DNA of 44,552 nt, from positions 1-44,552 of the forward strand of contig MGVC01000084.1 in assembly GCA_001800285.1 (NCBI GenBank), read 5' to 3'. The notes beneath the pieces are model-generated. The model had not been told where the DNA came from. It did no database searches and saw nothing but the letters and a program-made list of their open reading frames with translations. The translations under genes were made by a program, and so were the position numbers. Shown piece by piece: positions 1,190 to 40,654 of this stretch. The stretch comes from Elusimicrobia bacterium RIFOXYA2_FULL_39_19. Lineage in GTDB: Bacteria > Elusimicrobiota > Endomicrobiia > CG1-02-37-114 > XYA2-FULL-39-19. The first letter of the stretch is position 1. The number at the start of each line of letters is the position of its first letter.

Positions 1190-1283
1190 ACAAGAGCCTC
1201 CTTTTTTAAGGTCTCTTGTCTGCTATTATACTAATTTAGTATCCAGTTTTTGGGGTACAGTCCAAAGTATATCCATACTATTT

Positions 1284-2871: not shown

Positions 2872-3057
2872 ATTGCGACAAGAAAAGATCTTGCTGAAAA
2901 TGATATTCTTCGTGTAAATTTAGTTTATTTACTTAAAGCAAGAGAACAGTTATATTCAGTTGGTATAATAGAGCTTTTTATTACAATAGTAATATCATCA
3001 TTTCTTTTCTGGTTTCTTAATACTAAAAAAATAAAAGAGCAATTTGCTTTGAATTGA
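2872..3057 (+). pseudogene. In-frame open tail after the lipoprotein stop, one transmembrane segment
   Basis: Immediately after the TAA at 2869-2871 the same frame stays open for 61 codons to a TGA. It encodes a polar stretch (RKDLAENDILRVNLVYLLKA) and then a clear transmembrane helix (GIIELFITIVISSFLFWFL) with a lysine-rich end. There is no ATG, GTG or TTG in this frame to start it independently. It could be the severed C-terminus of a longer protein, a separate decayed gene or, less likely, a stop-readthrough product. The remaining 72 bp up to 3129 hold nothing recognisable. Confidence 0.35.
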
Positions 3058-3129
3058 CGGGCGTTGAATTATTAATATAATTTAAAAATGGCTGTTTATA
3101 TGAATTAATTAAGCGAGACTGGGGATCAG

Positions 3130-3954
3130 ATGATTTCAAAAATAACAGCTTATCCACCTGATGGTGTTACATCGATTTCTTATTATCATTATGACGGTAT
3201 TGGAAGTGCAAGTGCAATTACTGATGCAAACGGGACAGTAACTAACACTTACAGGTATGACCCGTTTGGAAACATGATTACAAGTACTGGAAAATTAGGG
3301 CGTTATTCGTTTGTTGGCGCCTTTGGTGTAGAAAACGATGGCATGAGCGGTCTCTTTCACATGGGAGCTCGTTATTATGATCCAACAACAGGCCGTTTTA
3401 TCCAAAGAGACCCAATAAGGGGGTTTGTTTCAGATCCACTTTCACTGAACCGGTATATTTATTGCGGAAATAATCCGATGAATTTTATTGACCCGAAGGG
3501 GCTGACAGCAACAGCAGGAACTACAGATCCAGAAACGGGAGAAACGGTAATTACAAATACTGAAGCAGAAGATCAAGAAGGCAATAGACCGAAAGCAATA
3601 TTTAATGGATATTCTTTTATTTTCTTTTATCCAATTGCGAATGGATATATAGCAGTTTCAGGAAATGGAACGCATCAAGGAATACCTAGTGGGACTTGGG
3701 ATGCAACTAACTTACGAACAAGAACAAAAACTGGGATGGTAGATCTCACGGGATTGGGTTGGAGTGTAGATCTGAAACCGAATTTTAGCACAGATAGAGA
3801 TTTGATACGGATCCACCCTGACCAACCACCATATGGAACTGAAGGATGTATAGGAATAGAAGGAGATACGCGTTATTTATATAATGCGATACAAGGTTAT
3901 TTGAGCTTACAAACATCATTTACTGTACAGGTGACAAATGGGAAATGTAAATAG
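3130..3954 (+). CDS. RHS core fragment with L,D-transpeptidase-like toxin tip (orphan cassette 2)
   Basis: Residues 1-124 are RHS core, nearly identical to cassette 1 (DGVTSISYYHYDGIGSASA, ARYYDPTTGRFIQRDPIRG, NPMNFIDPKG). Residues 125-274 are a unique tip. It has a linker (TAGTTDPETGETV), a beta-rich stretch and then RIHPDQPPYGTEGCIGIEGD, with H229 and C240 in an H...GTEGCIGI arrangement. In YkuD-type L,D-transpeptidases and the Tlde1 toxins, a His and a Cys in HG...S.GC[IV] motifs are catalytic. I therefore propose a cell-wall-targeting peptidase/transpeptidase fold, by motif only. The N-terminal core is cut just before the first ATG, so this is a cassette rather than a complete RHS protein. 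It overlaps the next gene by 17 bp. Confidence 0.72.
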   Translation: MISKITAYPPDGVTSISYYHYDGIGSASAITDANGTVTNTYRYDPFGNMITSTGKLGRYSFVGAFGVENDGMSGLFHMGARYYDPTTGRFIQRDPIRGFVSDPLSLNRYIYCGNNPMNFIDPKGLTATAGTTDPETGETVITNTEAEDQEGNRPKAIFNGYSFIFFYPIANGYIAVSGNGTHQGIPSGTWDATNLRTRTKTGMVDLTGLGWSVDLKPNFSTDRDLIRIHPDQPPYGTEGCIGIEGDTRYLYNAIQGYLSLQTSFTVQVTNGKCK

Positions 3955-4567
3955 AGTAGTTAGTTTATTTGTTTTGTTGTTAAGTTTATTAACTTCAATA
4001 AGTATTTGTGAAAATAAAGCACTGTCTGCTAAAGTAACAAATTCAGCTTTTATTAATAATATTGTTAGTAGATTTCATGAAGGAATAAAATTGTATAAAA
4101 AATATCAAGAAGCCGAAAAACTTTCTATAGAAAAAGCTTCAACTGAAGATGAATATTGGAAAATACGTCAAAAGACAGATGATTATAACGAAAAAATCCT
4201 TTTCCTAGCATATTTTGAATGTGTGAAAATCCTTTCTGAGAAGCAGAAAAACAATAAGCCAAATAAATATCAAAAGGTGTTAATTGAAGAGTTTTTGAAA
4301 ATCCTATTGGTATTTGAGGGTTCTGCTGATGAAGAATGGTCGAGGGGTTCAGGAGAAGCCTATTTTAGAAACCCTTATTTAATTGAATATGGTATAAGGA
4401 AGTTTTCTGTAAAAAAACAAAAAATGTTAGTAGAAAGAATTAACAGAAGTTTTGAATATTATTCAGATGGATTTGAATATTTTGCACCTGGGGAAGACAA
4501 GAAACAATTAGAATCAATAAGAAAACGTTTAGAAGAATTTACAGATTTAATCAGAATGAAGCAATAA
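3938..4567 (+). CDS. Exported protein, candidate immunity protein for RHS tip 2
   Basis: A 209-residue protein with a signal peptide (VVSLFVLLLSLLTSISIC, cleavage probably near CENKALSA). The mature part is helical and highly charged (KKYQEAEKLSIEKASTEDEY, KKQKMLVERINRSFEYYSD). No family is recognised. AGGTG near 3930 lies in the tip gene and is well placed for this ATG, so translation is probably coupled to the toxin tip. The predicted periplasmic location agrees with the cell-wall-enzyme motif in the overlapping tip, because immunity to such toxins must act outside the cytoplasm. Function is inferred from position only. Confidence 0.65.
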   Translation: MGNVNRVVSLFVLLLSLLTSISICENKALSAKVTNSAFINNIVSRFHEGIKLYKKYQEAEKLSIEKASTEDEYWKIRQKTDDYNEKILFLAYFECVKILSEKQKNNKPNKYQKVLIEEFLKILLVFEGSADEEWSRGSGEAYFRNPYLIEYGIRKFSVKKQKMLVERINRSFEYYSDGFEYFAPGEDKKQLESIRKRLEEFTDLIRMKQ

Positions 4568-4583
4568 TTGTCTTGTCTAAAAT

Positions 4584-4901
4584 ATGAAATCTAAAACAGA
4601 AACGGTAAGTTTAAGAAGCGGAATTGGCGCGGTAAATCCTGAAAATATAACTACGGATTACCTGTATGATGGAAGTGGGAACCAGTTACGCAAGGAAATG
4701 GGCAGTGGGCAGTCAATAGTGACTAAATATTTAAATTACGAATATGATTTTGAGAACCGCATGACAAAAGTTATTTTCCCTGACAACAGCTATGAGAAAT
4801 ACCTTTATGCGCCCAATGGAAAGAGGGTTGCAGTTCAAAAGTGGTTGGCGAATGCTTCGCAACCGGAAGAAACTACATATTTTGTTTATGATGCGCTTTA
4901 A
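4584..4901 (+). CDS. Truncated RHS core fragment without tip (orphan cassette 3)
   Basis: The 105 residues match the middle of the RHS core (TTDYLYDGSGNQLRKEMGSG, YEYDFENRMTKVIFPDNSYE, APNGKRVAVQKW, EETTYFVYDAL). In every other copy, YDAL is followed by QCNNVYE. Here the Gln codon position is TAA and the next bases keep only a trace of homology (TTC AAT AAT). The core therefore breaks off before its PKG end and has no toxin tip. It is probably a non-functional remnant left by recombination. The HtrA-like gene begins 23 bp after its stop. Confidence 0.7.
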   Translation: MKSKTETVSLRSGIGAVNPENITTDYLYDGSGNQLRKEMGSGQSIVTKYLNYEYDFENRMTKVIFPDNSYEKYLYAPNGKRVAVQKWLANASQPEETTYFVYDAL

Positions 4902-16899: not shown

Positions 16900-18513
16900 A
16901 TGCAGAACAAAACCGTTACTTTTCTTCCCTCAGGGAATAAAATTGAAGTATCTGCTAATGAACTGACTATTAAAGATGCTGCTAAGCTTGCAGGTGTTTT
17001 AATAGAGTTACAGTGCGGGGGAAAAGGCCACTGTGGGAAATGCCGCGTCACCGTAGCCGGAGAAAACATACCGTCAACTGCACTTGAAAAAAAGTTCATT
17101 TCAAAAACTGATTTGGAAAAAGGAATAAGATTAGCCTGCCAGTCAAAAGTATCAGCAGATATTACAGTAACCATACCAAAAAAACTCCAGCCGGACAAAA
17201 AAAAATTATTCATCTCAGCAATACCCGCAGTCTTAAATGCTCAACACGTATCAGACAGCCTTGGGGTGGCAATTGATATAGGGACTACCACTATCGTAGG
17301 CGTGCTTGTTGATTTGAAAACAAATAAAACTTTGTCTGTGTATGCCTTAACAAACCCGCAGGCGGTCCATGGTGCGGATGTTATTTCCCGCATAAACTAC
17401 GTCATAAATACCTCAAACGGCCTTAAATTACTACAAAGTAAAACTATTGAAACAATCAATGAAATAATTGAACACATCTGCCTGGAACTTAAGAAAAAGC
17501 CTGAAACTATTACAAATATTTCTGTCTGCGGCAATACCACCATGCAGCATTTTTTTATTGGTGAGGATCCCAGGTCACTTTCAGTTGCCCCGTATCAACC
17601 CCCTATAAGAGGCGTTTATAAAAAATTTAATGCTATAAAACTCGGCCTTAAAGCCAATCCGGAAGCGGAAGTATACCTGATTCCAAATATTGCCGGTTGG
17701 GTGGGCGGAGACACCGTAGGTGTAGTGCTGGCAACTGAAATGCATAAATCAAAAAAAATAAAACTTGCCATAGATATAGGCACTAATGGTGAAATGGTGC
17801 TGGGAAGTAAAGACAAAATGTCATCTGCTTCAACGGCGGCAGGCCCTTGTTTTGAAGGTGCGCGCATCAGCTGCGGTATGAGAGCGGCTGACGGCGCCAT
17901 TGAGTCCGTTTACATAGCGGAAGATGGTATTTTCTGGCGTGTGATAGGCCGCGTAAAAGCTGTTGGCATCTGCGGGTCAGCGCTTATTGATACTGTGGCA
18001 GAGCTTTTAAAGTTCGGCATAATAGATGAAACGGGAAGAATACAGACAAAAGCAGAACTTGAAGGGAAAGTTCCTGAAGTACTGCTAAAATCTTTAATTG
18101 AAAACGAGTCCGGTAATTCATTTCAGATAACAGAAAATATAATTGTTACACAGCGCGATGTCAGGGAATTACAGCTGGCAAAAGCGGCTATTCATGCCGG
18201 AATACAGGTATTAATATCAGAAATGAAAATTAAATCCGCTGATATAGATGAAATTCTGCTGGCGGGAACCTTTGGGAACTATATTGATAAAGCAAATGCT
18301 CAGAGGATAGGCCTTATACCGGATTTTGCGCTTGAAAAAGTACGGTATGTAGGTAATGCCGCCTGTGAAGGCGCACGGCTTGTATTGATTTCTGATAAAG
18401 CAAAAAAAGAGGCGGAATCAGTTGCCGGTTTTGTGAATTATGTAGAATTGTCAGCCCGAAATGATTTTCAGGACGCTTTTGTAGAATCCATGATGTTTAA
18501 ACGGCAGCAGTAA
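16900..18513 (+). CDS. [2Fe-2S] ferredoxin-ASKHA protein of the RACo/RamA type (DUF4445)
   Basis: A 537-residue protein. The N-terminal plant-type [2Fe-2S] ferredoxin has cysteines C39, C45, C48 and C80 (LQCGGKGHCGKC, LACQ). The C-terminal ASKHA-ATPase part has LGVAIDIGTTTIVGVLVDL, ISVCGNTTMQHFFIG, KLAIDIGTNGEMVLG and LLAGTFGNYID. Characterised relatives (RACo, the reductive activators of corrinoid methyltransferase proteins) use ATP to re-reduce Co(II) cobalamin to Co(I). No corrinoid methyltransferase gene is in this window, so its partner is unknown. The window does also encode a B12-dependent ribonucleotide reductase, but there is no known link. The stop codon lies within a palindrome (18508-18540). 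Confidence 0.85.
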   Translation: MQNKTVTFLPSGNKIEVSANELTIKDAAKLAGVLIELQCGGKGHCGKCRVTVAGENIPSTALEKKFISKTDLEKGIRLACQSKVSADITVTIPKKLQPDKKKLFISAIPAVLNAQHVSDSLGVAIDIGTTTIVGVLVDLKTNKTLSVYALTNPQAVHGADVISRINYVINTSNGLKLLQSKTIETINEIIEHICLELKKKPETITNISVCGNTTMQHFFIGEDPRSLSVAPYQPPIRGVYKKFNAIKLGLKANPEAEVYLIPNIAGWVGGDTVGVVLATEMHKSKKIKLAIDIGTNGEMVLGSKDKMSSASTAAGPCFEGARISCGMRAADGAIESVYIAEDGIFWRVIGRVKAVGICGSALIDTVAELLKFGIIDETGRIQTKAELEGKVPEVLLKSLIENESGNSFQITENIIVTQRDVRELQLAKAAIHAGIQVLISEMKIKSADIDEILLAGTFGNYIDKANAQRIGLIPDFALEKVRYVGNAACEGARLVLISDKAKKEAESVAGFVNYVELSARNDFQDAFVESMMFKRQQ

Positions 18514-18540
18514 TCCATGGGCTTTGCCCATGGATTACTG
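18508..18540. repeat. Perfect 15-bp palindrome over the stop codon
   Basis: CAGTAATCCATGGGC, loop TTT, then its exact complement. It includes the TAA of the upstream gene. No T-run follows. It has the same GGGC-TTT-GCCC core as 18616-18632. Confidence 0.8.
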
Positions 18541-18554
18541 CATGTGTGACGTTT

Positions 18555-18603
18555 ACCCCTGCGATAGTTTTCAAATTGTGTTTTTTTGAAAACTGCATGG
18601 GGT
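18555..18603. repeat. Hairpin family B, copy 1
   Basis: ACCCC then TGCGAT then AGTTTTCAAA, a short T-rich loop, then TTTGAAAACT, GCAT and GGGGT. Outer and inner stems are separated by an asymmetric internal loop. Related copies lie at 23717-23765 and 23870-23919. Confidence 0.8.
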
Positions 18604-18615
18604 AGTTGTTTTTGC

Positions 18616-18632
18616 CACGGGCTTTGCCCGTG
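18616..18632. repeat. Short palindrome CACGGGC-TTT-GCCCGTG
   Basis: A perfect 7-bp stem with a TTT loop, sharing its centre with the palindrome at 18508-18540. The two flank the family-B hairpin. Confidence 0.7.
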
Positions 18633-18676
18633 AGGGTCAACCAGAAAATAAATTATTAAACAGAGGGTTAGTAAAT

Positions 18677-21133
18677 ATGAAAAATGTCAGACACCTTATA
18701 GTTTTATTATTGCTTTTATTTTTCCAAAAAGGTTCCTTTTCCAATGAAAACCTGTTTCCACGGCAGGTGCTGGGTTTTGATTCCTGCGCTTATACAAGAT
18801 ATTCAAACGGTTTAATACTAAATCCCGCCATATTATCTTCGCCTGATACAGTTAGCGGGGTAAATATATCTTATTTCAACCAGTCAAAAACCGATTTAAA
18901 TAACGGCTATAAGAAAACCTCTGTATTTCTTGGTTCAGGACTTGGTTTTGAGCAGTTTGAGAATATGGGTATTTATAACAAGGCATATACAGGCACCTTA
19001 GGGTTAAATTTTGAACCGGAGGAAGAATTTCAGAAGGTGTTTTTCGGGGCGGCTTTCAGAATTTATTCTATAGAGGAAAGCAATACCCGTACAAATTGGG
19101 ATATGGGTTTATTGTATAAACCTTTTTCATTTGTGTCTTTAGGTGCCGTAGCCCAGAATATCAGGGAAGAAAGTTTTGTAACAGGGCTTAAAATGTATCC
19201 GCAGTACCGGGGCGGTATTGCCCTGCATCATAACATAGGTAAAAAAGTACCCGTTATCATTTCCTATGACAAACTGGAAGCAGCAGACCCTCTGCATTCC
19301 AGCAAATATTTCTATAACCTCAGCCTTGATTTAAACGACAATATTACGCTTTTCGCCAATTCAACGCGGGATAGCGCGGAATTGGAAACAAATACTGCCG
19401 GTCTTACCTACTTTTTCGGTGAAAAACTGCTGGCGGGGTACAATAATGAATCAAAAAACAGCGTAGCAGGTTACAGCCTGGTATTTGACCCGACACAGAA
19501 AAGAATAATCAGAGGTACGGATATTTTCGGAGCTAAAATAGCTGAGCTGGAAATAGCGGGCGAATATGAAGAAGAAAGAACTTTTAATTTTATGTTTTTT
19601 GCTCCCAGGAAACCGCTTTTTAGAAACCTGCTGGCATCAATAAAATCTGTATCAGGCAGAAAAAAATGCGGTTACTTGTTCATTACCCTGAAAAACAACA
19701 ATCTTGGTTTCTGCCAGATTAAAGAACTTAGAGACGCCCTGGTAAGTTTAAGAAAAGACGGCAAAAAGGTATACGTTTATATGCCGGACGGTATAGACCC
19801 TAAAAATTACTTTCTGGCATCGGCAGCAGATAAGATATATACCACGCCAAACAGTTTTGTGCATCTTGAGGGTTTAAGCGCTGACCTAATGTTTTTCAAA
19901 GGATTGCTTGATAAAGTAAAAGTAAAAGCGGACCTGGTGCGTCCGGAAGAATGTATCTATAAATCCGGAATAGAGCAATTCACCAGAACTTCAGCATCAA
20001 AAGAATTTAAGGAAAACATGGAAAGCGTGCTGGGTGAATTTTATAATAAAGTGCTTGGTTCTATAAGTGAAGCACGCAACATAAATATTAAACTTCTCCA
20101 GGAGACAGTAGATAAACAGCCCCTTATGACTGCCCGCCAGGCAAAGGAATTAAACCTGATAGATAATACCGGCTATCTTACTGAAATAAAGGACTATCTG
20201 GCAAAGGAAACGGATACCGCTGAAACAGGCAAGGATTTGAAGATGTTTAAGCTTTTACCGGAAAAGAATTCAAATTTCTGGGCGCGGGAACCGAGAGTTG
20301 CTGTGATTTACGCATTAGGCGGCATAATGGACGGAAAAAGCGAACGGCAGGGGCCATTCTCTCCTATAAAAATAGTGGGCGCGGATACCTTCATTAAAAA
20401 ACTTGAACTGGTAAAAGAAAATAAAAAGATAAAAGTTGTAGTTATCAGGATAGATTCACCCGGTGGCAGCGGGCAGGCATCGGATTTGATATGGAAAGCC
20501 ATAGAAGACCTGAAAGCTGACGGAAAAAAAGTAGTGGTCTCTATGGGAAATGTAGCGGCCTCAGGTGGTTATTATATAGCCTGCAATGCTGATAAAATAG
20601 TAGCTGATGAATACACCATCACGGGAAGCATAGGCGTATTTGGCGGTAAAATTGTTTTCGGCGGACTACTGGACTGGGCGGGCATAAATACCGAAACAAT
20701 AAAATACGGCAGAAATGCAGATATGTTTTCATCCAACAAAGAGTTTACCGCTGAGCAGAAGCAGATAATTACCGCTCAGCTGGATGATTTTTATAAAAAT
20801 TTCAAGGAAAAAGTGGCAAAAGGCAGGAACCTTTCTTATGAAGAAGTATCAAACCTGGCAAAAGGGAAAATCTATACAGGTCAACAGGCGCTGGATGCCA
20901 AACTGGTAGATAAACTGGGCGGTTTGTCAGAAGCGCTGAAACTTGCCGGTGAAATAAGCGGTGTAGATGACCCGGAGAATGCGCTTTATATTGAAGATGA
21001 CAGGGGCTTAAAAGACCTGTTTATGGATTCTCTGGCCTTTTCTCCCGAACTAAAACTACAGAACACATTTAAAAGGTTTGAAAACTCAGGCTATGTATGG
21101 ACTATAATGCCTGCCTGGATAGATATAAAATGA
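18677..21133 (+). CDS. sppA: Signal peptide peptidase SppA fused to an N-terminal beta-barrel-like domain
   Basis: A serine protease that degrades cleaved signal peptides, with two tandem SppA/ClpP-like domains in about residues 325-790. The Lys-Ser dyad of 67K-type SppA is visible as K429 (CIYKSGIEQFTR) and S629 (GNVAASGGYYIACNADKI). Their spacing of 200 equals that of the E. coli enzyme (K209/S409). At 818 residues it is about 200 longer than the usual 600, because residues about 25-300 are an added domain. After a signal peptide (LIVLLLLLFFQKGSFS) this domain has alternating aromatic strands and YSNGLILNPAIL, like PorV/OMP barrels (LYKPFSFVSLGAVAQNIREE, NTAGLTYFFGEKLLAGYNNE). Such a layout would place the protease at the outer membrane or periplasm. 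It overlaps the next gene by 4 bp. Confidence 0.88.
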   Translation: MKNVRHLIVLLLLLFFQKGSFSNENLFPRQVLGFDSCAYTRYSNGLILNPAILSSPDTVSGVNISYFNQSKTDLNNGYKKTSVFLGSGLGFEQFENMGIYNKAYTGTLGLNFEPEEEFQKVFFGAAFRIYSIEESNTRTNWDMGLLYKPFSFVSLGAVAQNIREESFVTGLKMYPQYRGGIALHHNIGKKVPVIISYDKLEAADPLHSSKYFYNLSLDLNDNITLFANSTRDSAELETNTAGLTYFFGEKLLAGYNNESKNSVAGYSLVFDPTQKRIIRGTDIFGAKIAELEIAGEYEEERTFNFMFFAPRKPLFRNLLASIKSVSGRKKCGYLFITLKNNNLGFCQIKELRDALVSLRKDGKKVYVYMPDGIDPKNYFLASAADKIYTTPNSFVHLEGLSADLMFFKGLLDKVKVKADLVRPEECIYKSGIEQFTRTSASKEFKENMESVLGEFYNKVLGSISEARNINIKLLQETVDKQPLMTARQAKELNLIDNTGYLTEIKDYLAKETDTAETGKDLKMFKLLPEKNSNFWAREPRVAVIYALGGIMDGKSERQGPFSPIKIVGADTFIKKLELVKENKKIKVVVIRIDSPGGSGQASDLIWKAIEDLKADGKKVVVSMGNVAASGGYYIACNADKIVADEYTITGSIGVFGGKIVFGGLLDWAGINTETIKYGRNADMFSSNKEFTAEQKQIITAQLDDFYKNFKEKVAKGRNLSYEEVSNLAKGKIYTGQQALDAKLVDKLGGLSEALKLAGEISGVDDPENALYIEDDRGLKDLFMDSLAFSPELKLQNTFKRFENSGYVWTIMPAWIDIK

Positions 21134-21891
21134 AAAAGGTAAAAGTAACAGAAATAGTAAAATTTCTTAATAAAACCTTAGAAGTAAGCAGGATTAAAGA
21201 CTCTTCAAAAAACGGCCTGCAGGTTAAAGCTTCAAATGAAACCAATAGAATTGCATTTGCCGTAGATGCCTGCCTGGATACATTTAAAAAGGCAAAACAG
21301 CAGGATTGCAACATGGTGGTTGTACATCACGGATTGCTATGGAAAGGATCAAAAGATTCTTTGAAGTGGAAAGAAAAAAATATTGCATACCTCAAAAAAA
21401 ACAGGATGTCTCTTTATGCAGCACACCTGCCGCTGGATAAACATAACAAATATGGCAATAATATAAAACTGGCTGAGCTATTAGGCCTGAGCAATATTAA
21501 GGAATTTGGGGACTATCATGGGATTAAAATAGGATTTTCCGGCAGGTTTAAAAATCCAACAAGCCTGTATGCTGTAGCTGGAAAAATTGAAAAAACGCTA
21601 AAAACCAAGTGTATTACGGTACAAGGCGGAAAAAACAAGCTTAAAACAATTGCCATCGTATCCGGCGGTGGAAGCAGTGCTCTTGAAGAAGCTATACTAA
21701 AAAAGTATGATTGTTTTCTTATTGGTGAGGCACCCCATTATGTTCATAATGAAGCAAAAGACCGCGGAATGAACCTGCTGGTAGCCGGCCATTACCATAC
21801 CGAAACTTTGGGTGTAAAAGCGCTGGCAGAGTTGTTAGCTGAAAGGTTTGGAGTAAAAACTGTGTTTATTGATAATCCAACTTTATTCTAA
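21130..21891 (+). CDS. Nif3-family dinuclear metal-centre protein
   Basis: A 253-residue protein of the Nif3/YbgI/GTP-cyclohydrolase-I-type-2 family, a hexameric cytoplasmic fold with a two-metal site. The metal ligands are visible in VVHHGLLW, AHLPLDKH and VAGHYHTETLG, with a late Glu. FLNKTLEVSRIKDSSKNGLQ is the typical start. ATG 21130 is chosen because it forms an ATGA overlap with the sppA stop and matches the family N-terminus; the in-frame ATG at 21097 would add 11 atypical residues. The physiological role of the family is unsettled. The lipocalin start overlaps its stop by 1 bp. Confidence 0.88.
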   Translation: MKKVKVTEIVKFLNKTLEVSRIKDSSKNGLQVKASNETNRIAFAVDACLDTFKKAKQQDCNMVVVHHGLLWKGSKDSLKWKEKNIAYLKKNRMSLYAAHLPLDKHNKYGNNIKLAELLGLSNIKEFGDYHGIKIGFSGRFKNPTSLYAVAGKIEKTLKTKCITVQGGKNKLKTIAIVSGGGSSALEEAILKKYDCFLIGEAPHYVHNEAKDRGMNLLVAGHYHTETLGVKALAELLAERFGVKTVFIDNPTLF

Positions 21892-22433
21892 TGAAAAATA
21901 TAAATTACAAAATCTTTTTTATTATGTTTGTTTTTTCTGCGGGTTTATTTGCAGAAGATAAGCTGCCGCCCTTGAAAACTTTTGCTTATGTAGATGTAAG
22001 CCGCTGTAACGGCAGGTGGTATGAAATAGCAAAATACCCGAATTTTTTTCAGAGGGGCCTTATTGCCGGGACTGCTGACTGGTCTATTGACCCTGATGGA
22101 GATATCCGGGTTTATTTCATAGGAAAAAAAGGTAATCTTAAAGGAAAAGAAATAAAGTCAAAACTAAAAGGCTGGGTTTCAGATAAACAAACCAATACAA
22201 AATTTGTAATTCGTTTTTTCTGGCCTTTTTCCGGAGAATACTGCCTCATTGATGTCGGAAAGGATTATGAATATGCCGTAGTGAGCAAACCATCAAGAAA
22301 GCATTTATGGATTTTATCACGTACTCCGCAAATGGACGAGCAGGTTTATCAGAAGATATTAGACAGCTTGAAAGAACAGTGTTTTGACTTAGAAAAACTT
22401 ACCAGAACGCCACAGATTAATTCCGGAGATTAG
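21891..22433 (+). CDS. Lipocalin family protein (Blc-like)
   Basis: A 180-residue exported lipocalin with a signal peptide (KIFFIMFVFSAGLFAED) and no lipobox cysteine, unlike E. coli Blc. The lipocalin first motif is CNGRWYEIAKYPNFFQRG (GxW). Later strands are GTADWSIDPDGDIRVYFIG, FVIRFFWPFSGEYCLIDVG and YEYAVVSKPSRKHLWILSRT, all as in Blc/apolipoprotein D. Blc-type proteins bind lysophospholipids or fatty acids at the outer membrane. It is translationally coupled to the Nif3-family gene (TAATG overlap), which suggests one operon with sppA and an envelope role. Confidence 0.88.
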   Translation: MKNINYKIFFIMFVFSAGLFAEDKLPPLKTFAYVDVSRCNGRWYEIAKYPNFFQRGLIAGTADWSIDPDGDIRVYFIGKKGNLKGKEIKSKLKGWVSDKQTNTKFVIRFFWPFSGEYCLIDVGKDYEYAVVSKPSRKHLWILSRTPQMDEQVYQKILDSLKEQCFDLEKLTRTPQINSGD

Positions 22434-22458
22434 TTTAATAAAAGCATAAAGCAATAAA

Positions 22459-22476
22459 GCGGGATAGTAATCCCGC
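22459..22476. repeat. Short palindrome after the lipocalin gene
   Basis: GCGGGAT, loop AGTA, then ATCCCGC. It is part of a repetitive-looking spacer with a second related stretch near 22515-22545 (tgtagcggtcgcattactat). It could end the sppA operon transcript, but no T-run follows. Confidence 0.5.
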
Positions 22477-22560
22477 CGCTACAAAAATGTTTTTAACGTG
22501 GCGGGTGGTTGTTGTAGCGGTCGCATTACTATGCGGCTAATCAAAATAAAGGAAAATAAA

Positions 22561-23403
22561 ATGGGAAAAAGAAACAAAGCAGATTCAAAAGAAATAGGGC
22601 TGGATCTCGGAATAATTTTAAGCAAGTACTTTTTCAAAACAGAACACCTGCATTACGGTTATTGGACTAAGGATTTGGAAGTGGACCCTTTTAATCTGGC
22701 AAAAGCCCAGGATAATCACACGAATTTCATTGTTTCAAACATCCCTGATGGCACAAAAACAATTCTTGATGTAGGCTGCGGTATAGGGAAACTGTCACAG
22801 CGGTTTATTTCATTAGGGTATAAGCCCGAATGCGTATCACCCAGCAAGCTGCTAACAAAATATGCCCGTGAAATATTAGGCGGAGACATCTTAATACACG
22901 AATGCAAGTATGAAGATTTGCACACTGATAAACGCTATGATCTGATAGTGTTTTCTGAAAGTTACCAGTATGTAGACCTGGTAAAATCATTTGAAAATTC
23001 ACTGAAATATCTCAATACCGGAGGCCACATACTAATCTGCGATTTCTTTAAAACCGACGCAAAAGGGGAAAGTGCCTTAGGCGGCGGCCATCATTTAAAG
23101 GAATTCTATGAAACCGCTAAACGCTACCCGCTTAAAATGCTCAAAGATATTGATATTACCAGAGAAGCAGCGCCTAATCTTAAACTGATAGATGATTTCC
23201 TAACAAAAGTAGGCGTACCTGTGTGGCAGGCCCTGCTGGATTATATGGATAAGAAAAGCCCGTTTGTTTCAAAGATTATTAAGTGGAAATTCAGAAAAAA
23301 AATAGACAAGATTAACAAAAAATATTTCAGCGGCACAAGAAATGCTGAAAACTTTGCCATATTTAAATCTTACAGGCTCTTCTTGTTTAAGAAAGAAGCT
23401 TGA
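22561..23403 (+). CDS. Class I SAM-dependent methyltransferase
   Basis: A cytoplasmic methyltransferase of 280 residues. Motif I is KTILDVGCGIGKLSQRF, the post-I acidic region is atypical (YKPECVSPSK), and later motifs are YDLIVFSESYQYVDL and GGHILICDFFKTD. The overall order (HLHYGYWTKDLE before motif I) resembles the tocopherol-methyltransferase/cyclopropane-synthase-like branch acting on small molecules or lipids. The substrate is unknown. ATG 22561 is preferred over 22498 because AAAGGAAAA lies just upstream and the earlier part (AGGCCSGRITMR) is repeat-derived. It is probably not in the sppA operon, given the 127-bp spacer with palindromes. Confidence 0.8.
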   Translation: MGKRNKADSKEIGLDLGIILSKYFFKTEHLHYGYWTKDLEVDPFNLAKAQDNHTNFIVSNIPDGTKTILDVGCGIGKLSQRFISLGYKPECVSPSKLLTKYAREILGGDILIHECKYEDLHTDKRYDLIVFSESYQYVDLVKSFENSLKYLNTGGHILICDFFKTDAKGESALGGGHHLKEFYETAKRYPLKMLKDIDITREAAPNLKLIDDFLTKVGVPVWQALLDYMDKKSPFVSKIIKWKFRKKIDKINKKYFSGTRNAENFAIFKSYRLFLFKKEA

Positions 23404-23416
23404 AAATAGCGACCTC

Positions 23417-23445
23417 TTGACTAAAACAAAAAAAATCTTTATAAT
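23417..23445 (+). promoter_or_regulatory. Sigma-70-type promoter of tRNA-Gly
   Basis: TTGACT (23417-23422), a 17-bp spacer and TATAAT (23440-23445). The predicted start is near 23452, about 32 nt before the mature tRNA. Confidence 0.8.
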
Positions 23446-23483
23446 ATACATCACAATCAGTAAATGGCTCTTTTCTTAAAAAT

Positions 23484-23556
23484 GCGGGTGTAGTTCAGTG
23501 GCTAGAACGACTCGTTGCCAACGAGTAGGTCGAGGGTTCAACTCCCTTCGCCCGCT
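23484..23556 (+). tRNA. tRNA-Gly (anticodon GCC)
   Basis: A complete 73-nt cloverleaf. The acceptor stem is GCGGGTG with CGCCCGC, and the discriminator base is T. The D arm includes TAGTTCAGTGGCTAGAAC. The anticodon stem is ACTCG/CGAGT with loop TTGCCAA. The T arm is AGGGTTCAACTCCCT. CCA is not encoded. A good promoter lies upstream. The last 13 bases recur at 23652-23664. Confidence 0.95.
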
Positions 23557-23651
23557 ATTCTTACAGATTTTGTGGCGGTCTTGTGAGCCCGGGGCGCTCA
23601 CCAACTCGCGCCCGCCGCAAGAATATTCCGGTTTATTCACCGGAATTGCGG

Positions 23652-23664
23652 CCCTTCGCCCGCT
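23652..23664 (+). repeat. Duplicated tRNA-Gly 3' end (att-like)
   Basis: CCCTTCGCCCGCT is an exact copy of tRNA bases 23544-23556, lying 108 bp downstream. Such duplications mark integration at tRNA genes, but no integrase is present here. Confidence 0.5.
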
Positions 23665-23674
23665 TTGATTTTTT

Positions 23675-23703
23675 AAATAAACCTGATATGAAAAGGTTTA
23701 TTT
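23675..23703. repeat. Hairpin family A, copy 1
   Basis: AAATAAACC, loop TGATATGAAAA, then GGTTTATTT: a perfect 9-bp stem. The loop is almost identical to that of copy 2 although the stem differs. Confidence 0.75.
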
Positions 23704-23716
23704 AGTGTGAAAAATC

Positions 23717-23765
23717 ACCCCTGCGCTAATTTTTAAACTTGTTTTGTTTAAAAATTGCATGGGGT
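23717..23765. repeat. Hairpin family B, copy 2
   Basis: ACCCC, TGCGCT, AATTTTTAAA, loop, TTTAAAAATT, GCAT, GGGGT. Compared with copy 1, the inner stem has changed on both arms so that pairing is kept. Confidence 0.8.
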
Positions 23766-23775
23766 TAACACATCT

Positions 23776-23807
23776 ACAAAAACCCTGATGTGAAAAGGGT
23801 TTTTTGT
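23776..23807. repeat. Hairpin family A, copy 2
   Basis: ACAAAAACCC, loop TGATGTGAAAA, then GGGTTTTTTGT. The T-rich right arm could also act as a weak terminator. The loop matches copy 1 at 10 of 11 bases. Confidence 0.75.
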
Positions 23808-23869
23808 ATGTTAGGACTGCTACCCTTCCTAACGGGTAACAGCAGTCACGAGAGTTGTAACTGAAAATC

Positions 23870-23919
23870 ATCCCTACGATAGTTTTCAAACATGTTTAAG
23901 TTTGAAAACTGTAAGGGAT
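23870..23919. repeat. Hairpin family B, copy 3
   Basis: ATCCCT, ACGAT, AGTTTTCAAA, loop, TTTGAAAACT, GTA, AGGGAT. Relative to copies 1 and 2, the outer stem has changed on both arms (ACCCC/GGGGT to ATCCCT/AGGGAT). Confidence 0.8.
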
Positions 23920-23961
23920 TATCAGAAGGTAGCGGTCTTGTGAGCGTCAAAGGGTCTTTAT

Positions 23962-24189
23962 AATCTATGGGGAAGTATAGGCATAGTTGTGGAAAGGTGT
24001 TCTATTTCAAGAATGCAGAAATATTTAAGAATTAGAACACAGAATAATGTCATTTCAGTCATTGCGAGGAGCTTTTAGCGAAGCGGCAATCTAAAACAAC
24101 GAGATTGCTTCACTAACGTTCGCAATGACAAATTATAGCAATTATTGTCCCGTAAATTATAGAAGTTATCCACAATTTCCCCATAGATT
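23962..24189. mobile_element. MITE-like unit with 13-bp perfect terminal inverted repeats
   Basis: AATCTATGGGGAA (23962-23974) is the exact inverse of TTCCCCATAGATT (24177-24189). A second inner pair, TTGTGGA (23987-23993) and TCCACAA (24169-24175), strengthens the inverted symmetry. The 228-bp unit has no coding capacity and contains another palindromic repeat. No clear target-site duplication is seen. Confidence 0.45.
24058..24129. repeat. GTCATTGCGAGG-type palindromic repeat
   Basis: It starts GTCATTGCGAGGAGC and ends GTTCGCAATGAC, with CGGCAATCT and GAGATTGCTTC facing each other inside. This intergenic palindrome type is widespread in many bacterial phyla. Confidence 0.8.
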
Positions 24190-24270
24190 GGGAGACCCGC
24201 GTCAAAAAGTATCCTTCCTTAAAATCAACACGATAATATCATTTCAAACATAAACAAACCATAAACTCAA

Positions 24271-30043: not shown

Positions 30044-30483
30044 AAATTGGTAGCCGCAGGCTTTAGCCTGCGAAACACAGTAAATATTTGGCAGCTGTTA
30101 TTTGTAGCGCAGTCTTACTGATTTTTCGTTTTATCATAGGACATCAGTACATTGCCCATAGTTAGCCTGCGAAACACAGTAAATATTTGACAGTTGTTAT
30201 TTGTAGCGCAGGCTTACTGATTTTTCATTTTATCATAGGACATCAGTACATTGCCCATAGTTAGCTTGCGATTGATCGGTTCCTGAAATACGCAACCTAA
30301 AGGTTGCGGCTACAAACCAGAATGTAGTTGCCGCTTTATCGGCGCCCTTAATGTAGCCGCAGGCTTTAGCCTGCGAAAAAAAAAGAATAATTGATTAAAA
30401 TTGAAATTTGAAAAGGAAAAAAGTAAATCAGTGGTTTAACAGTTAATACTGTTCACTCTTCACAATTTACGCTTTACTGACAT
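30044..30483. other. 440-bp repeat-rich intergenic region
   Basis: No gene. It contains two copies of the palindrome CGCAGGC-TTTA-GCCTGCG (30055-30072 and 30358-30375), a 99-bp tandem repeat (30065-30262), the palindrome CGCAACCT-AA-AGGTTGCG (30291-30308) and an operator-like inverted repeat AACAGT-TAAT-ACTGTT (30438-30453) upstream of guaA. Confidence 0.8.
30065..30262 (+). repeat. Two tandem 99-bp direct repeats
   Basis: Units 30065-30163 and 30164-30262 differ at four positions by eye. Both begin AGCCTGCGAAACACAG, joining the right arm of the TAGCCTGCG palindrome to a conserved spacer. A third unit starts at 30263 (AGCTTGCG) but diverges at once. Confidence 0.85.
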
Positions 30484-34463: not shown

Positions 34464-37400
34464 ATGCTGAAAAAAATAATTCTGCTTTTAATGGTGTTTA
34501 TTTTAGTAATTGCAACTCCCGTAACATATTTTTCTATGTGGAGTGATGACTATGCAGTTTCAAGAATAACAAACAACAACGAAAGCGCAAAAAAACAATC
34601 CACAAATTACAACTTAAACACAAATTTTGGTGAATCATTCATTGGTTTAACACAAAGCCAATCCTATAAAATAACAATAGGATTTTTTGGAGCATCAAAA
34701 GCCAAATACCTGCCCAACGGGTTACCTTCGCCTGAGCCAACACTTATTGAAGCATCAGCACAACCGCCATCAGTAAATGCCGGTGAAACCTCAAATATTA
34801 CTGCATTGATAATAGATGCACGTTATACGGATCAAAGGCCTGTCCCAAATGTTCAGGTGAATTTTCAGGTAACAGCTGGCGGTGGTTCTTTAGAAGTAAT
34901 AAACGGTACTTCTGATGAAAATGGTTACGCCAGAGCAAGATTGACTACGGGGCCTAATACTGCAGAAAACAAAATAAAAATAACTGTTCAGGGACAAACC
35001 CTTATAGAAAAGACCGTAATAGTAAACGGTTATAAAGCCGCAATTACAGGCAGCATTACTGGAACCCCAACAGTCGGAAGTTCTTTTATAAACTCGCAAT
35101 ACAGCCCCGCGTTGCCTGCCCCAGGAAGTTTATCAGGATATAAAAGTTTAAGTGCTATTCTTAAGGAAAAAGAACTTAGAGAAAAAGAAATACAAGAACA
35201 GCAAGAAAGAGAGAAAAAGCAGGAAGAATTCAGGCAGTATATGTTAAGCAGGAAAATAGAGCAATTTATTGGATTTCAAAAAAGTATTAATGAAACAATA
35301 ACAGAAATGAACAAATTGGCAGGAAAAATAGAAAAGAGAAGAGAAAAATATGATATGACAGTAGGCTTAATAGGTGATTATCAATCAGCAGGCGGTTTAA
35401 CAAAAAGCCAGTATAAAACAGCTTTAAATAAAGTAGGAAGAGCGGAATCCTTAGCTGCTGAAATCAATACCATGGTTGAACAATATAATGAGTACTCAGA
35501 AAAACTTAACAAATTGACTGCACATGCCCAATATCTTTGCGATGAAGTTGAAGAAATTGTCTGTGATTTTAATCCTGTAAACACTTTTAATGGAAACCTG
35601 ATTTACACGGTAAGAGATTTGTTTTTGCCTTCCAGGGGAATGTCTTTACAATTATCCAGGACTTATAATAGTTTCTCAGCCGCAGACAGCCCGTTCGGCT
35701 ATGGTTGGACTTTTTCTTATGATATGTACTTGAAGTTCATTGATGCGGACAATATAGTTTTTCATAGAGGTGATGGGGCAGAAATAAATTACTTGAAACA
35801 GCAAGATGGTACATTTAAGCCGGCAATAGGGAATTATTCAAACTTAATAGAAAATACTGATAATAGTTATACATTGACAGAACAATCAGGCATGAAGTTT
35901 AAATTCAGCGTTTCAGGCAAGTTAACCCAACTAGTTGACCGCAATAACAATACAATAACACTCACCTACACTGACGGCAAACTCACAAAAATAACTGATA
36001 CAACCGGCAGAGAAACTTTTTTCCAATATAACTTACAGGGCAGAATTTCAAAACTCATAGACCCGGCAAGCAGGGAAACAAATTATACTTACAATGAAAA
36101 TGGTGACTTAACTCAGGTAACCGGCCCGGGAGATTTTGCGGCAACTTATGCGTATGACAGCAACCACCTGATGATAGAACGCAATGACCCAAATTGTGAC
36201 ATAAAAAAATATGTTAAAAGAAAATATGAGTATGATGAAAATAACAGGGTAATTACTGAAATAGATGGCCTGAATAATAGGTTTACTATTCAATATGACC
36301 TGGCAAACAGAATAACCATTTTTACCGATGCTAAAGGCAATCAGACACAATTCCAATATGACGCTCTATGCAGATTGATTTCGCAGACAAATGCCGATAA
36401 CAATACAAAAACATATTCCTGGGATTCAAATAATAACAATACAAGTGTTACGGATTATAAAGGAGAAATAACCCAGTATACTTATGATATATATGGCAAT
36501 GAAGCCAGCGCTACAGACCCGTTGGGGAAAGTCCGGTCCGGAACCTGGGATATTTATGGAAATCCATTAACGGTTACAGACCCGAAGGGGAACACAACTA
36601 CATTTACTTATGACAATAATGGAAATCTCATTGAAATTGAAGATGCCTTGGATTCAACAATTCAATACAGTTATAATTCTTATGGGCAAAAAACATCCGT
36701 TACTGACAAAAATAACCACACCAGTACCTATGAATATGATCAATACGGTAACAATAACATAATAACTGACCCTCAAGAAGGGTCAACAAATCTTACCTAT
36801 GATGTTATTGGAAGATTAACGGGTGTTACGGATCCACTCAACAGAACCATGTATTATAATTACGATAATAGAAATCGCATAACAAAAATCATAAATTCCG
36901 ATGCAACGGAAAAGAGTTTTACTTATGATATAAATAACAATATTTTAAGCATTACTGATGAAAATAGCAATGTAACTTACTTTGCCTATGATGCCAATAA
37001 CCTGCTTTTAAACATTGAAGACCCTTTGCATAATAATACCGTTTATACTTATGATGAACTTGGCAGGAAAATAACTGTAAAAGACTCAAAAAACAATACT
37101 GCCAGCTTTACTTATGATAAACTTGACCGCATAACCACAGTAACCGATGCGTTAAACAACCAGACATCATTTGCTTATGATAAAATGGGAAATCAATTAT
37201 CTGTTACAGATGCAAGAGGAAAAACCACTTCTTTTGAATATGATGCAATAGGAAAAATGTTAACAAAAACAGATGCAAATGGTAAAAATGTTCTGTACGA
37301 ATATGATTCGGCAGGCTGTCTGACCGGACTTACGGACCAGAATAACCATAAAACGACTTATGAATATAACGCCCTTAATAGAATGATAAAAATCATAGAT

Positions 37401-40340
37401 CCGCTTAACGGCCAAACGATAAATAATTATGATAATGCCGGCAACATAACCTCAATTACAGATGCAAATGGAAATGCCACGTTATACGAATACGATTCTT
37501 TAAACAGACTGGTTAAAATTAAAGACGCGCTTGATAATGAAACCCATTTTACTTATGATGCTGTAGGTAATAAATTGTCAGTAGTAGACGCAAATAATAG
37601 AACCGTGCTATATGAATATAATTCAAGAAACAGGTTAGTTGAAGTGACTGATACCAAAGGCGGTATATCAACTTACGAATATGATAACGCAGGCAATAGA
37701 ACTGCTTTTACTGATGCATTAAATCATGAAACAAATTACCAATATGATGACTTAAACCGGTTAACTAAAACAATTGATGCGTTAAGCAACCAGACGGATT
37801 TTACTTATGACACTGTAGGGAACCTTATTTCAAAAACAGATGCTAACAACAATGTCACTCAATTTGAATATGATGTTTTAAACAGACTGACAAAAACAAT
37901 CAATGCCAAAGGCAAAACAACCCAATTATTGTATGATGCCGTAGGAAATAAAACAGCTGTAATTGATGCTAAAAGTAACCTGACTGCCTTTGAATACGAT
38001 AATTTGAACCGTTTAACAAAAATTACAGACCCTCTGAATAATCAAACCATTTATGCGTATGATTTTGCAGGCAATCGCACAACAATAATGGATGCAAACA
38101 GCAAAACAACAAATTATGAATATGATGCATTAAACAGACTGACAAAAGTAACTGATGCAAATAGTAAATCAACTTCCTATGAATACGATGCTGTGGGCAA
38201 CCGCTTAAGTCTTACAGATGCTAAAGGCAATAAAACCACCTACGAATACAATGCATTAAATAAAATAGTACAAGAAGAAGACCCTCTAAATAAAACTGTC
38301 CAGTACCAGTATAACGCTGTTGGTAATCTTATTGCAAAAATTGATGGAAATGATAACACTATAAGCTACGCTTACGATAATTTTGACCAGCTTACCCAGC
38401 AAACTTATCCAGACCAAGACGTGTCAAATTATACCTATAATGCTGTAGGCAATAGGACCCGCCAGTATAATCAAAATGCTGATGTAAGCTATGGTTATGA
38501 TTCCTTAAATAGGTTGATAACAGTTACCCAAAGTTTTCCCGGCACCAATTTAGGCCCAAAAGTTGTCCAGCATGCTTATGATGCTGTGGGTAATCGCACA
38601 TCGGTTACTTATCCGGATAATAAGGTAACTACATTTGCGCATAATGAAATTAACCAGACAACACAAATAAATGATGCAGATTCAGGAATAATAAGTTATG
38701 AGTACGATGATGTGGGAAATAAAACAAAAGCAACCTATTCAAATGGTATAGAATCTGATTATGTTTATAATGTTAATAACTGGCTTTTTAATATTGAACA
38801 CAAAAACACGCTAACCGGCGTGATGGTTTCTTCGTTTGGGTACACTTATGATAATGTGGGCAACAAAACCAACACAGTTGACGGTTACGGCAAAACGGAC
38901 TATATTTATGATAACCTTTATGAGCTTACAAAGGTTACATTTCCAGAAAAAACCTTCCAGGAATATTATTATGACCCTGTAGGTAACAGGACAAAATTTG
39001 TTGATGAACAGGGCGTAATAAATTATCAGTATAACAATGCAAATGAGCTGACTCAATATCTGGTTAATAGAAACAGCACGCAGGGCAATCAGGGCGGATT
39101 GTATGACCCCGGGATTGTTACGGTATCTACCGGAGCGGTGATTAATTTAAAGACAGGCATAAGCGCAGTAACCCTAAAAAATGTAACTGTTGATTATGAG
39201 TATGACGGAAATGGCAGCCAGGTGCAAAAAACAGTTAAAAATGAAGGGTCAACAATGAATAAAGAATATAACTATCAATACGATTATGAGAACAGGCTTG
39301 TGAAAGTAATTTTTCCTGACAATAGTTATGAAAAGTATTTGTATGCGCCCAATGGAAAGCGGGTGGCGGTACAGAAGTGGCAAGCAAATGCTTCGCAACC
39401 CGAAGAAACAACCTATTTTGTTTATGACGCATTACAGTGCAATAATGTTTATGAGATCAGCGGGAGTTCTGTTTCAAGGTATGTTTATTTATGGCCCGGC
39501 AATGAAATGCTTTCAAAGGTTGTTACTACTTCCGACTTACCACTTATGACTTACGGTTTTTATTACCATTATGATTCATTAGGTTCAGTGAGTGCGATAA
39601 CAAACTCAAGCGGAACTGTGACCAACACATATCGGTACGACCCGTTCGGTAATGTAATGAACAGCACAGGGAAAAACGGCAGATATTCATTCGTAGGTGC
39701 TTTTGGCGTAGAAAATGACGGTATGAGTGGCTTATTTCACATGGGTGCCCGCTATTACGACCCAACAATAGGAAGGTTTATTCAGAGAGATTCTGTAAGA
39801 GGGTTCATTGATGACCCTCTTACCCTGAACAGATATATTTACTGTGGCAATAACCCGATAAACTATATAGATCCGAAAGGATATGGGAAATTGGATTTAG
39901 ATGAAAATACCAATACTTATGGACATGGTGGAACAGGACAAGAATACATTGAAAAATATGGAAATTATGATTCAAATGATATTAATAACAACAATTCAGA
40001 GAGATCGTCTGGTAATTATAATTCGCCCTTGTTGTTCCCTTTAATTGGTGCAATTAGTCCATTGAAAATTACAATAAAAATTGTTAATTTATTACTTAAC
40101 CCAATTCCATTTACAGTAGATGATTTTATCTTTTATTTTCTAAAAGAAGCACCAGAATTAAATCCCATACAAGATAATCCAACAAATCCTGAAAATCCAA
40201 TGTATGGAACGTGGGAATTAGATATAAATAAATTACCAAAACAAGATCCAATACTTTTTATACCCGGAGATGTGCAAATACGTGGAATCAAAAATTCAAA
40301 AAATCAAAGTATAAATAATTATGATTGTAAAAATAAGTGA
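34464..40340 (+). CDS. Full-length RHS/YD-repeat polymorphic toxin-like protein
   Basis: A 1958-residue exported protein. In order: a signal segment (IILLLMVFILVIATPVTYF); a Big-1/invasin-like Ig domain (about 85-190: PPSVNAGETSNITALIIDA, VNFQVTAGGGSLEVINGTSD); a charged coiled coil (about 225-370: KEKELREKEIQEQQERE); a DUF6531-like entry domain (about 375-450: FNGNLIYTVRDLFLPSRGMS); and roughly 50 YD repeats to about residue 1560, built on YEYDALNRLTKVTDANS-like units. The RHS core ends at DPKG near residue 1804, and a unique tip of about 154 residues follows (SPLLFPLIGAISPLKIT, NPTNPENPMYGTWELDINKL). Such proteins form a shell that encloses and releases the C-terminal toxin. The tip's activity is not recognised. 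The next gene overlaps by 20 bp. Confidence 0.9.
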   Translation: MLKKIILLLMVFILVIATPVTYFSMWSDDYAVSRITNNNESAKKQSTNYNLNTNFGESFIGLTQSQSYKITIGFFGASKAKYLPNGLPSPEPTLIEASAQPPSVNAGETSNITALIIDARYTDQRPVPNVQVNFQVTAGGGSLEVINGTSDENGYARARLTTGPNTAENKIKITVQGQTLIEKTVIVNGYKAAITGSITGTPTVGSSFINSQYSPALPAPGSLSGYKSLSAILKEKELREKEIQEQQEREKKQEEFRQYMLSRKIEQFIGFQKSINETITEMNKLAGKIEKRREKYDMTVGLIGDYQSAGGLTKSQYKTALNKVGRAESLAAEINTMVEQYNEYSEKLNKLTAHAQYLCDEVEEIVCDFNPVNTFNGNLIYTVRDLFLPSRGMSLQLSRTYNSFSAADSPFGYGWTFSYDMYLKFIDADNIVFHRGDGAEINYLKQQDGTFKPAIGNYSNLIENTDNSYTLTEQSGMKFKFSVSGKLTQLVDRNNNTITLTYTDGKLTKITDTTGRETFFQYNLQGRISKLIDPASRETNYTYNENGDLTQVTGPGDFAATYAYDSNHLMIERNDPNCDIKKYVKRKYEYDENNRVITEIDGLNNRFTIQYDLANRITIFTDAKGNQTQFQYDALCRLISQTNADNNTKTYSWDSNNNNTSVTDYKGEITQYTYDIYGNEASATDPLGKVRSGTWDIYGNPLTVTDPKGNTTTFTYDNNGNLIEIEDALDSTIQYSYNSYGQKTSVTDKNNHTSTYEYDQYGNNNIITDPQEGSTNLTYDVIGRLTGVTDPLNRTMYYNYDNRNRITKIINSDATEKSFTYDINNNILSITDENSNVTYFAYDANNLLLNIEDPLHNNTVYTYDELGRKITVKDSKNNTASFTYDKLDRITTVTDALNNQTSFAYDKMGNQLSVTDARGKTTSFEYDAIGKMLTKTDANGKNVLYEYDSAGCLTGLTDQNNHKTTYEYNALNRMIKIIDPLNGQTINNYDNAGNITSITDANGNATLYEYDSLNRLVKIKDALDNETHFTYDAVGNKLSVVDANNRTVLYEYNSRNRLVEVTDTKGGISTYEYDNAGNRTAFTDALNHETNYQYDDLNRLTKTIDALSNQTDFTYDTVGNLISKTDANNNVTQFEYDVLNRLTKTINAKGKTTQLLYDAVGNKTAVIDAKSNLTAFEYDNLNRLTKITDPLNNQTIYAYDFAGNRTTIMDANSKTTNYEYDALNRLTKVTDANSKSTSYEYDAVGNRLSLTDAKGNKTTYEYNALNKIVQEEDPLNKTVQYQYNAVGNLIAKIDGNDNTISYAYDNFDQLTQQTYPDQDVSNYTYNAVGNRTRQYNQNADVSYGYDSLNRLITVTQSFPGTNLGPKVVQHAYDAVGNRTSVTYPDNKVTTFAHNEINQTTQINDADSGIISYEYDDVGNKTKATYSNGIESDYVYNVNNWLFNIEHKNTLTGVMVSSFGYTYDNVGNKTNTVDGYGKTDYIYDNLYELTKVTFPEKTFQEYYYDPVGNRTKFVDEQGVINYQYNNANELTQYLVNRNSTQGNQGGLYDPGIVTVSTGAVINLKTGISAVTLKNVTVDYEYDGNGSQVQKTVKNEGSTMNKEYNYQYDYENRLVKVIFPDNSYEKYLYAPNGKRVAVQKWQANASQPEETTYFVYDALQCNNVYEISGSSVSRYVYLWPGNEMLSKVVTTSDLPLMTYGFYYHYDSLGSVSAITNSSGTVTNTYRYDPFGNVMNSTGKNGRYSFVGAFGVENDGMSGLFHMGARYYDPTIGRFIQRDSVRGFIDDPLTLNRYIYCGNNPINYIDPKGYGKLDLDENTNTYGHGGTGQEYIEKYGNYDSNDINNNNSERSSGNYNSPLLFPLIGAISPLKITIKIVNLLLNPIPFTVDDFIFYFLKEAPELNPIQDNPTNPENPMYGTWELDINKLPKQDPILFIPGDVQIRGIKNSKNQSINNYDCKNK
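38785..39886 (+). repeat. RHS core repeat block, master copy
   Basis: The 3' part of the full-length RHS gene that is re-used in the two downstream cassettes (40667-41620 and 42667-43790). Stretches such as 39480-39570 are identical or nearly so in all three. Confidence 0.85.
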
Positions 40341-40593: not shown

Positions 40594-40654
40594 AAGCAAC
40601 AATTGTATTGATTGACATTGTGATAATAGAAAACAGAGATCAAGAAGTTAATTT

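Follow-up and report, generated by a model that had tools for sequence, protein, structure and literature searches.

What kind of sequence are three similar hairpins that lie scattered in a contig of an uncultured Elusimicrobiota bacterium, and what do the paired changes in their stems reflect? The hairpins occupy positions 18555-18603, 23717-23765 and 23870-23919 of a 44,552-nt stretch of DNA (the window), which is contig C84 of the 3.09-Mb genome of Elusimicrobia bacterium RIFOXYA2_FULL_39_19 (G000). They are pieces of a small mobile DNA repeat family that has not been described before; in a literature search of incomplete coverage, no publication dealing with repeats of this type in Elusimicrobiota turned up. 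The mobility of the repeat is well supported, and we consider it likely that it is a non-autonomous modular element, mobilised in trans and probably as a folded single strand. The window genome was compared with four further genomes (G001, G002, G003 and G004) and with 295 genomes sampled across the phylum, using two covariance models, R1 of the reported hairpin (H2) alone and R2 of H2 together with the hairpin preceding it (H1).

An initial annotation had reported the three hairpins as one shape with an outer stem, an asymmetric internal loop, an inner stem and a T-rich loop. All three are present with the stems as described, and they fold with z = -4.2, -4.5 and -5.7, none of 200 shuffles folding equally well. 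The internal loop, by contrast, is smaller than was stated, because its TGC pairs with GCA, which leaves a 3-nt bulge on the 5' side (GAT or GCT, hence G-N-T) and a 1-nt bulge on the 3' side. Also the extent was incomplete: because the flanks of the copies were read, H2 could be recognised as the middle part of a larger element, of which it makes up about one third (copy 1, approximately 18498-18641). That no named family matches holds for the literature searched and for Rfam 15, in which no family matched the element at gathering or relaxed thresholds and only a tRNA was found in the window.

The three window copies all lie on the forward strand. Copy 1 (18498-18641) is a complete short form H1-H2-H3 with the left end TAAACGGCAGC, the right end GGTCAAC and the left flank TT, and R2 matches it at 18498-18603. 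Its H1 (18498-18555) has the outer stem TAAACG/CGTTTA, the inner stem GCAGTAATCCATGGGC/GCCCATGGATTACTGC and the 3' bulge ATGTGTGA, and it is followed by H2 (18555-18603, ACCCCTGC) with the bulge GAT, a 10-bp inner stem and the T-rich loop, and by H3 (18606-18641, CCACGGGC TTT GCCCGTG) with the foot GTT/AAC and the right tip TCAAC. Copy 2 (23666-23813; R2 match 23666-23765) consists of H1 with TGATTTTT/AAAAATCA around TAAATAAACC/GGTTTATTTA and the bulge GTGTG, H2 (23717-23765, AATTTTTAAA/TTTAAAAATT) and an H3 of the form TAACA...TGTTA. Copies 1 and 2 thus share one architecture of three hairpins; the stems of copy 2 differ throughout, and GTGTG and the H2 core are kept. Copy 3 (23815-23927, with a tentative left end) combines an upstream hairpin GACTGCTACCC..GGGTAACAGCAGTC (23815-23847) with an extended H2, CTGA..TCATCCCT/AGGGATTATCAG, in which the H2 proper (23870-23919) has the outer stem ATCCCT/AGGGAT.

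The region around copies 2 and 3 holds further repeats. Within 23484-23663, the 3' end of a tRNA-Gly (gcc), CTTCGCCCGC at 23546, is repeated 108 bp further on at 23654, a pattern that resembles the trace of a small element inserted next to the tRNA. The sequence GGTCTTGTGAGC occurs twice, at 23577-23588 and 23934-23945, on either side of the two copies. Directly behind copy 3, at 23952-24195, lies a second dispersed repeat (AATCTATGGGGAAGTATAGGCATAGTTGTGG...; CCCATAGATTGGGAGACCCG) with further copies at L115 (contig C76), L053 (C74) and L174 (C60).

Across the copies, H1 runs from TAAACGGCAGC to CGTTTA; its inner stem is exchanged freely, and the bulge TGTGTG on its 3' side is conserved. H2 abuts it without a gap and carries the 5' G-N-T bulge. 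Most copies in G000 run on into H3 and end in GGATCAAC. The version in G003 consists of H1-H2 only, for example TAAACGGCAGC GAA GCATGTGTGCCGTTTA CCCCAGCG...GCGAGGGGT; the minimal element is the two adjoining hairpins, and H3 is an addition in G000. Shortened derivatives, which keep both ends or the left one, exist as well: the 43-nt L187, in which the left end is joined to the GGATCAAC right end, and L207, which is devoid of H2, retain the left end and H3. Tandem arrangements were seen in two places. On contig C74 at 23.7-24.3 kb (L053), a 247-bp unit that holds H1/H2-like hairpins is repeated 2.2 times with 99% identity between two genes, and on contig C25 (L125, approximately 1660-1880) an approximately 75-bp unit, GGAGGAGTTTGCCTTAGCCTACC...GGCGGAAAATGTAAT, stands in tandem directly behind a degenerate element and just before the start of an open reading frame (ORF).

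Long forms of about 300 nt (L044, L045 and L048) have extra hairpins between and inside the basic ones and fold, multi-branched as they are, at z ~ -6. Their H1 is a three-way structure with an 11-bp closure around two sub-hairpins, followed by a CTGTG..CACAG hairpin (CCGTG..CACGG in L048), and a further hairpin sits within the H2 loop; L048 only has an additional CACTTGC..GCAAGTG hairpin. It could be imagined that these forms represent one long structured RNA or ribozyme, of which the short forms are remnants that decayed by deletion. The branched H1 with its long closing stem and the additional hairpins would suit this idea, as would the fact that short forms retain the 5' arm GGCAGC, the partner of which sits in the deleted part, and that one deleted block is flanked by TTTACCC direct repeats. 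We nevertheless regard it as very improbable, as the occurrence of one and the same short form in many copies, and also in another family, indicates that it spreads by itself, and as no ribozyme-like conserved unpaired core was recognised and Rfam was negative.

The initial annotation had inferred compensatory changes, and thus selection on structure, from three copies, which contain only few such events. In larger sets these changes are real. Among 13 copies of H2, four pairs show double changes (1.0±0.8 in shuffles), and among 23 copies of H1+H2, in which 95% of cells pair, double changes occur in 16 of the 27 pairs, compared with 4.1±1.4 in shuffles (0/500), while the covariation score is 0.228 against 0.084±0.008. 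Related copies inflate such shuffle tests, but controls with slid partners, which keep the relatedness, gave 4-7 double-change pairs and thus also remain far below the observed value. The H1 outer stem alone has nine double-change pair types against 2.4±1.0; its bases 1 and 3 are invariant and base 2 varies once (T27, A26, A27 of 27), whereas positions 4-8 are variable. The stems therefore covary while the bulges are retained, and the many double changes with preserved asymmetric bulges support selection on structure.

An alternative origin of the paired changes would be template switching in imperfect palindromes, in which one arm is copied onto the other and no selection on structure is needed. 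The near-perfect palindromic inner stems, replaced wholesale, are what arm-copying or palindrome swapping would yield. Such copying would, however, erase asymmetric bulges, and TGTGTG on the 3' side of H1 and G-N-T on the 5' side of H2 persist in nearly all copies of two families; also positions 4-8 of the H1 outer stem carry a large variety of single-position double changes. We think that template switching is improbable as the source of the covariation. The exceptions to Watson-Crick pairing are five G-T and four A-C, and H2 alone is likewise without a clear excess, in small numbers in both cases; as G-T and A-C are equal, neither strand is marked as an RNA strand.

The covariance-model search of the genome and its relatives that the initial annotation had suggested finds further copies in G000, G003 and G004. 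A strict pattern gave 13 copies in G000 and R1 about 30 places, some of them hit on both strands owing to the near symmetry of the H2 hairpin; the number of copies in G000 is put at about 35. R2 matched 36 places in G000, 15 in G003, two in G004 and none in two sister-genus genomes, and R1 matched three of the 295 phylum-sampled genomes, solely G000, G003 and G004. G003, Elusimicrobia CG1_02_37_114, belongs to another family of the same order and carries the lineage-specific version with two hairpins; in an alignment, the copies of G000 and G003 fall into lineage-specific types, those of G003 sharing their own consensus, as expected of separate bursts. Everywhere the copies are alike in their internal structure and not in their flanks, and their contexts are unrelated. 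The patchy presence and the lineage-specific types fit mobile DNA. Viral contigs were searched and gave no match, and a match in Mariniphaga (L084) was discarded as a chance match inside other sequence, lacking the second hairpin.

The ends of the element point in the same direction. The two bases before the TAA with which the element begins are pyrimidines in 35 of 38 copies (position -2) and 34 of 38 (position -1). These pyrimidines are kept although they do not belong to the paired element. The left end is therefore YY|TAA, and this holds for nearly all copies. To the right of the element the flank shows no constraint, and a consistent duplication of the target was not found, the flanks sharing only words of 0-5 nt. 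In copies with H3 the right tip reads GATCAA(C); L035 has TCTA instead, and its 5' foot changes to match. The tip pairs with the foot of H3 and co-changes with it, and nearly every copy has an internal TTA to which the TAA pairs.

In 15 of 39 copies (11 of 33, and in addition L170, L172, L148 and L173, of which the placement of L172 was read from sequence) the upstream gene has this TAA as its stop codon. The share expected from the non-coding-plus-stop YYTAA sites in the window is 7.7%, which gives p = 8e-8, or 4e-4 at the doubled rate. Two of the genes were tested by search, and the other neighbours were assigned by sequence. The rpsG gene encodes a ribosomal protein S7 that ends in ..FAHYRW as in aligned homologues (solved), and the gene behind that element reads as the start of EF-G (rpsG-fusA operon); the formate-tetrahydrofolate ligase ends in ..IVGLF, where a solved homologue ends in ..ITGLF. 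Since both proteins have natural C-termini, the position of the element coincides exactly with the natural stop, and the stop itself is the insertion point. Copies are thus often found at stop codons without damage to the protein. In the window, the element of copy 1 begins a few codons inside a gene for a RACo-like corrinoid-activation protein (16900-18513, forward strand), the last codons of which, KRQQ-stop, are read from the left end of copy 1 and are supplied by the element. A corrinoid-related regulation was considered for this copy and dropped, as the other neighbours are functionally unrelated: besides rpsG and the ligase gene, they comprise outer-membrane-like proteins, a HAD-like hydrolase and a LemA-like gene. 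Near another copy, Rfam identifies a c-di-GMP-I riboswitch (61 bits), which lies a little upstream of that copy at 1772-1909 of L049 (contig C5).

Such a position just after the stop codon, together with the strong covariation and the folding of the long forms, would also suit a cis-acting RNA, that is a 3'-untranslated or intercistronic domain serving as terminator, mRNA stabiliser or other structured RNA. The genes on both sides are mostly co-oriented with the element (22 ++ and 7 --, against 3 +- and 2 -+). This sense bias can be traced, however, to the targeting of TAA stops, and the fixed YY|TAA flank indicates an insertion target. Furthermore, G-U pairs are not in excess over A-C, the inner stems are replaced wholesale, the copies are scattered beside functionally unrelated genes and absent from the sister genus, and there is no Rfam match, so that we judge a cis-acting RNA to be unlikely as the nature of the family. 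Of the two options that the initial annotation had left, the mobile repeat is the better supported; copies may also have effects as RNA once co-transcribed, and hairpins in the mRNA just behind a stop codon may affect its stability or coupling.

The mobile repeat is favoured because of the dispersed and unrelated contexts, the lineage-specific amplification, the fixed YY|TAA, the derivatives that keep the ends and the lack of a G-U excess, and a single-strand mechanism is suggested by the fixed target in the left flank, the missing duplication, the bulged end hairpins and the internally pairing tips. The element would move in trans as a folded single strand that is recognised by the shape and bulges of its hairpins. 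The left target TAA would be recognised through its pairing to the TTA inside the element, where H1 has its foot, and the foot of H3 would pair in like manner with the right tip TCAA, as in IS200/IS605 (HUH Y1) transposases, and by this analogy an IS200/IS605-like enzyme is the putative mobiliser. Insertions inside genes would get lost, and those at TAA stop codons would survive because the stop is kept.

Several observations weigh against this mechanism. When 18 loci of Y1 transposases from the five genomes were searched with R1, no H2 was found nearby, and no autonomous copy with TnpA and the same ends was found in G000-G004. G001 and G002 have Y1 genes and lack the elements. The TTA complement on the left lies 3' of the left hairpin, whereas the IS608 guide lies 5'; the right ends differ, being H2 in G003 and H3 in G000; and the three-branched H1 of the long forms looks RNA-like. 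The Y1 transposases were accordingly rejected as adjacent mobilisers, since none carries H2, and a pattern search near their loci gave no convincing H1-like left end. On contig C25, a 163-aa Y1 gene and an element relic are 3.5 kb apart, with other genes between. The enzyme partner may be lost, absent from the metagenome-assembled genome G000, or of another kind. More tentatively, and with rather low probability, the family could be a new class of single-stranded DNA element that homes to TAA stops via a guide in the left hairpin, the long form possibly being a functional structured RNA; gene ends, including that of the rpsG-fusA operon, would then be colonised without harm. An IS110 bridge RNA was dropped by argument, since conservation here lies in the unpaired bases and variation in the stems, opposite to a guide loop.

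If the preferred reading of a mobile repeat is true, it adds a small mobile-element family to a phylum with almost no described repeats, and a natural example of an insertion system for which stop codons serve as safe sites, so that the host is spared. It would also provide a test case for whether base-paired guides of the IS608 type explain target choice in non-autonomous hairpin repeats, and it cautions against taking strong covariation in intergenic hairpins as proof of an RNA gene. Elsewhere in the window, repeated YD/Rhs-like C-terminal segments at 34464-44139 and 879-4901, with a 1958-aa ORF followed by partial copies of 84-92% identity, suggest an Rhs-type cassette array.

Among known systems, repetitive extragenic palindromic (REP) sequences and bacterial interspersed mosaic elements with their transposase RAYT (TnpA-REP) resemble the element as dispersed short imperfect palindromes, some of them bulged, that lie mostly beside or behind coding regions and for which mobilisation as folded single-stranded DNA has been proposed (PMC3733652, PMC8266576). 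The E. coli TnpA-REP needs a bulge in the stem for REP recognition (PMC8266576). REP repeats are, however, defined by GTAG or CGTC tags (PMC3733652), and the element has neither at the foot of its hairpins, its left foot being TAAAC; GTAG arises only by overlap in the GGGGTAG of some copies and is absent in L033, L035 and most G003 copies. Unlike REP sequences, the element has asymmetric hairpins H1-H2(-H3) in a fixed order and a fixed YY|TAA target with insertion at stop codons, and no copies flank the Y1 genes tested. Separate from the element, the window holds a palindrome CATTGCGAGGAGC...GATTGCTTC...GCAATGAC (24056-24127) like the CGTC-type REP repeats of other bacteria, and GTAG-type REP-like GTAGCCGCAGGCTTTAGCCTGCG palindromes at 30050 and 30353 (30050-30393), with a 99-bp tandem duplication at 30063-30260.

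IS608 of the IS200/IS605 family inserts 3' of the tetranucleotide TTAC, which is kept in the left flank, its right cleavage site C_R is TCAA, and both sites are read by base-paired guides beside hairpins (PMC5934647). The element shares with it the left-flank target, the lack of duplication, hairpins at both ends and the right tip TCAA, and its internally pairing tips may correspond to the guides; the combination of a fixed short target on the left, none on the right and no target duplication that marks a non-autonomous derivative of this family is found here. It differs in having no internal transposase gene, no autonomous partner identified in the lineage, and a left guide-like complement 3' of the hairpin. 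Another modular composite is the BOX element of Streptococcus pneumoniae (boxA-boxB-boxC), compared here by its published description only and showing no sequence relation in that comparison, which has constant end modules, optional inner ones, an RNA-like fold and nested insertions (PMC3049150). BOX is distinguished by its terminal inverted repeats, which are linked to an insertion sequence, whereas the present element has YY|TAA and its placement at stop codons. DDE-type miniature inverted-repeat transposable elements were rejected, as TAAACGGCAGC and GGATCAAC are, by eye, not inverted repeats and there is no consistent duplication; a variant with TA duplication was dropped since GGGGTA is not universal and GGGGTTG and GGGGTTT occur. 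Integron attC sites function as a folded strand, one arm of which carries unpaired bases, and have a variable terminal structure, and the element resembles them as a folded-strand hairpin with one-sided unpaired bases; they were rejected as well, as no RYYYAAC/GTTRRRY boxes are seen by eye at the ends and the copies are scattered singly and not in a cassette array. The family is therefore best placed among the non-autonomous hairpin repeats.

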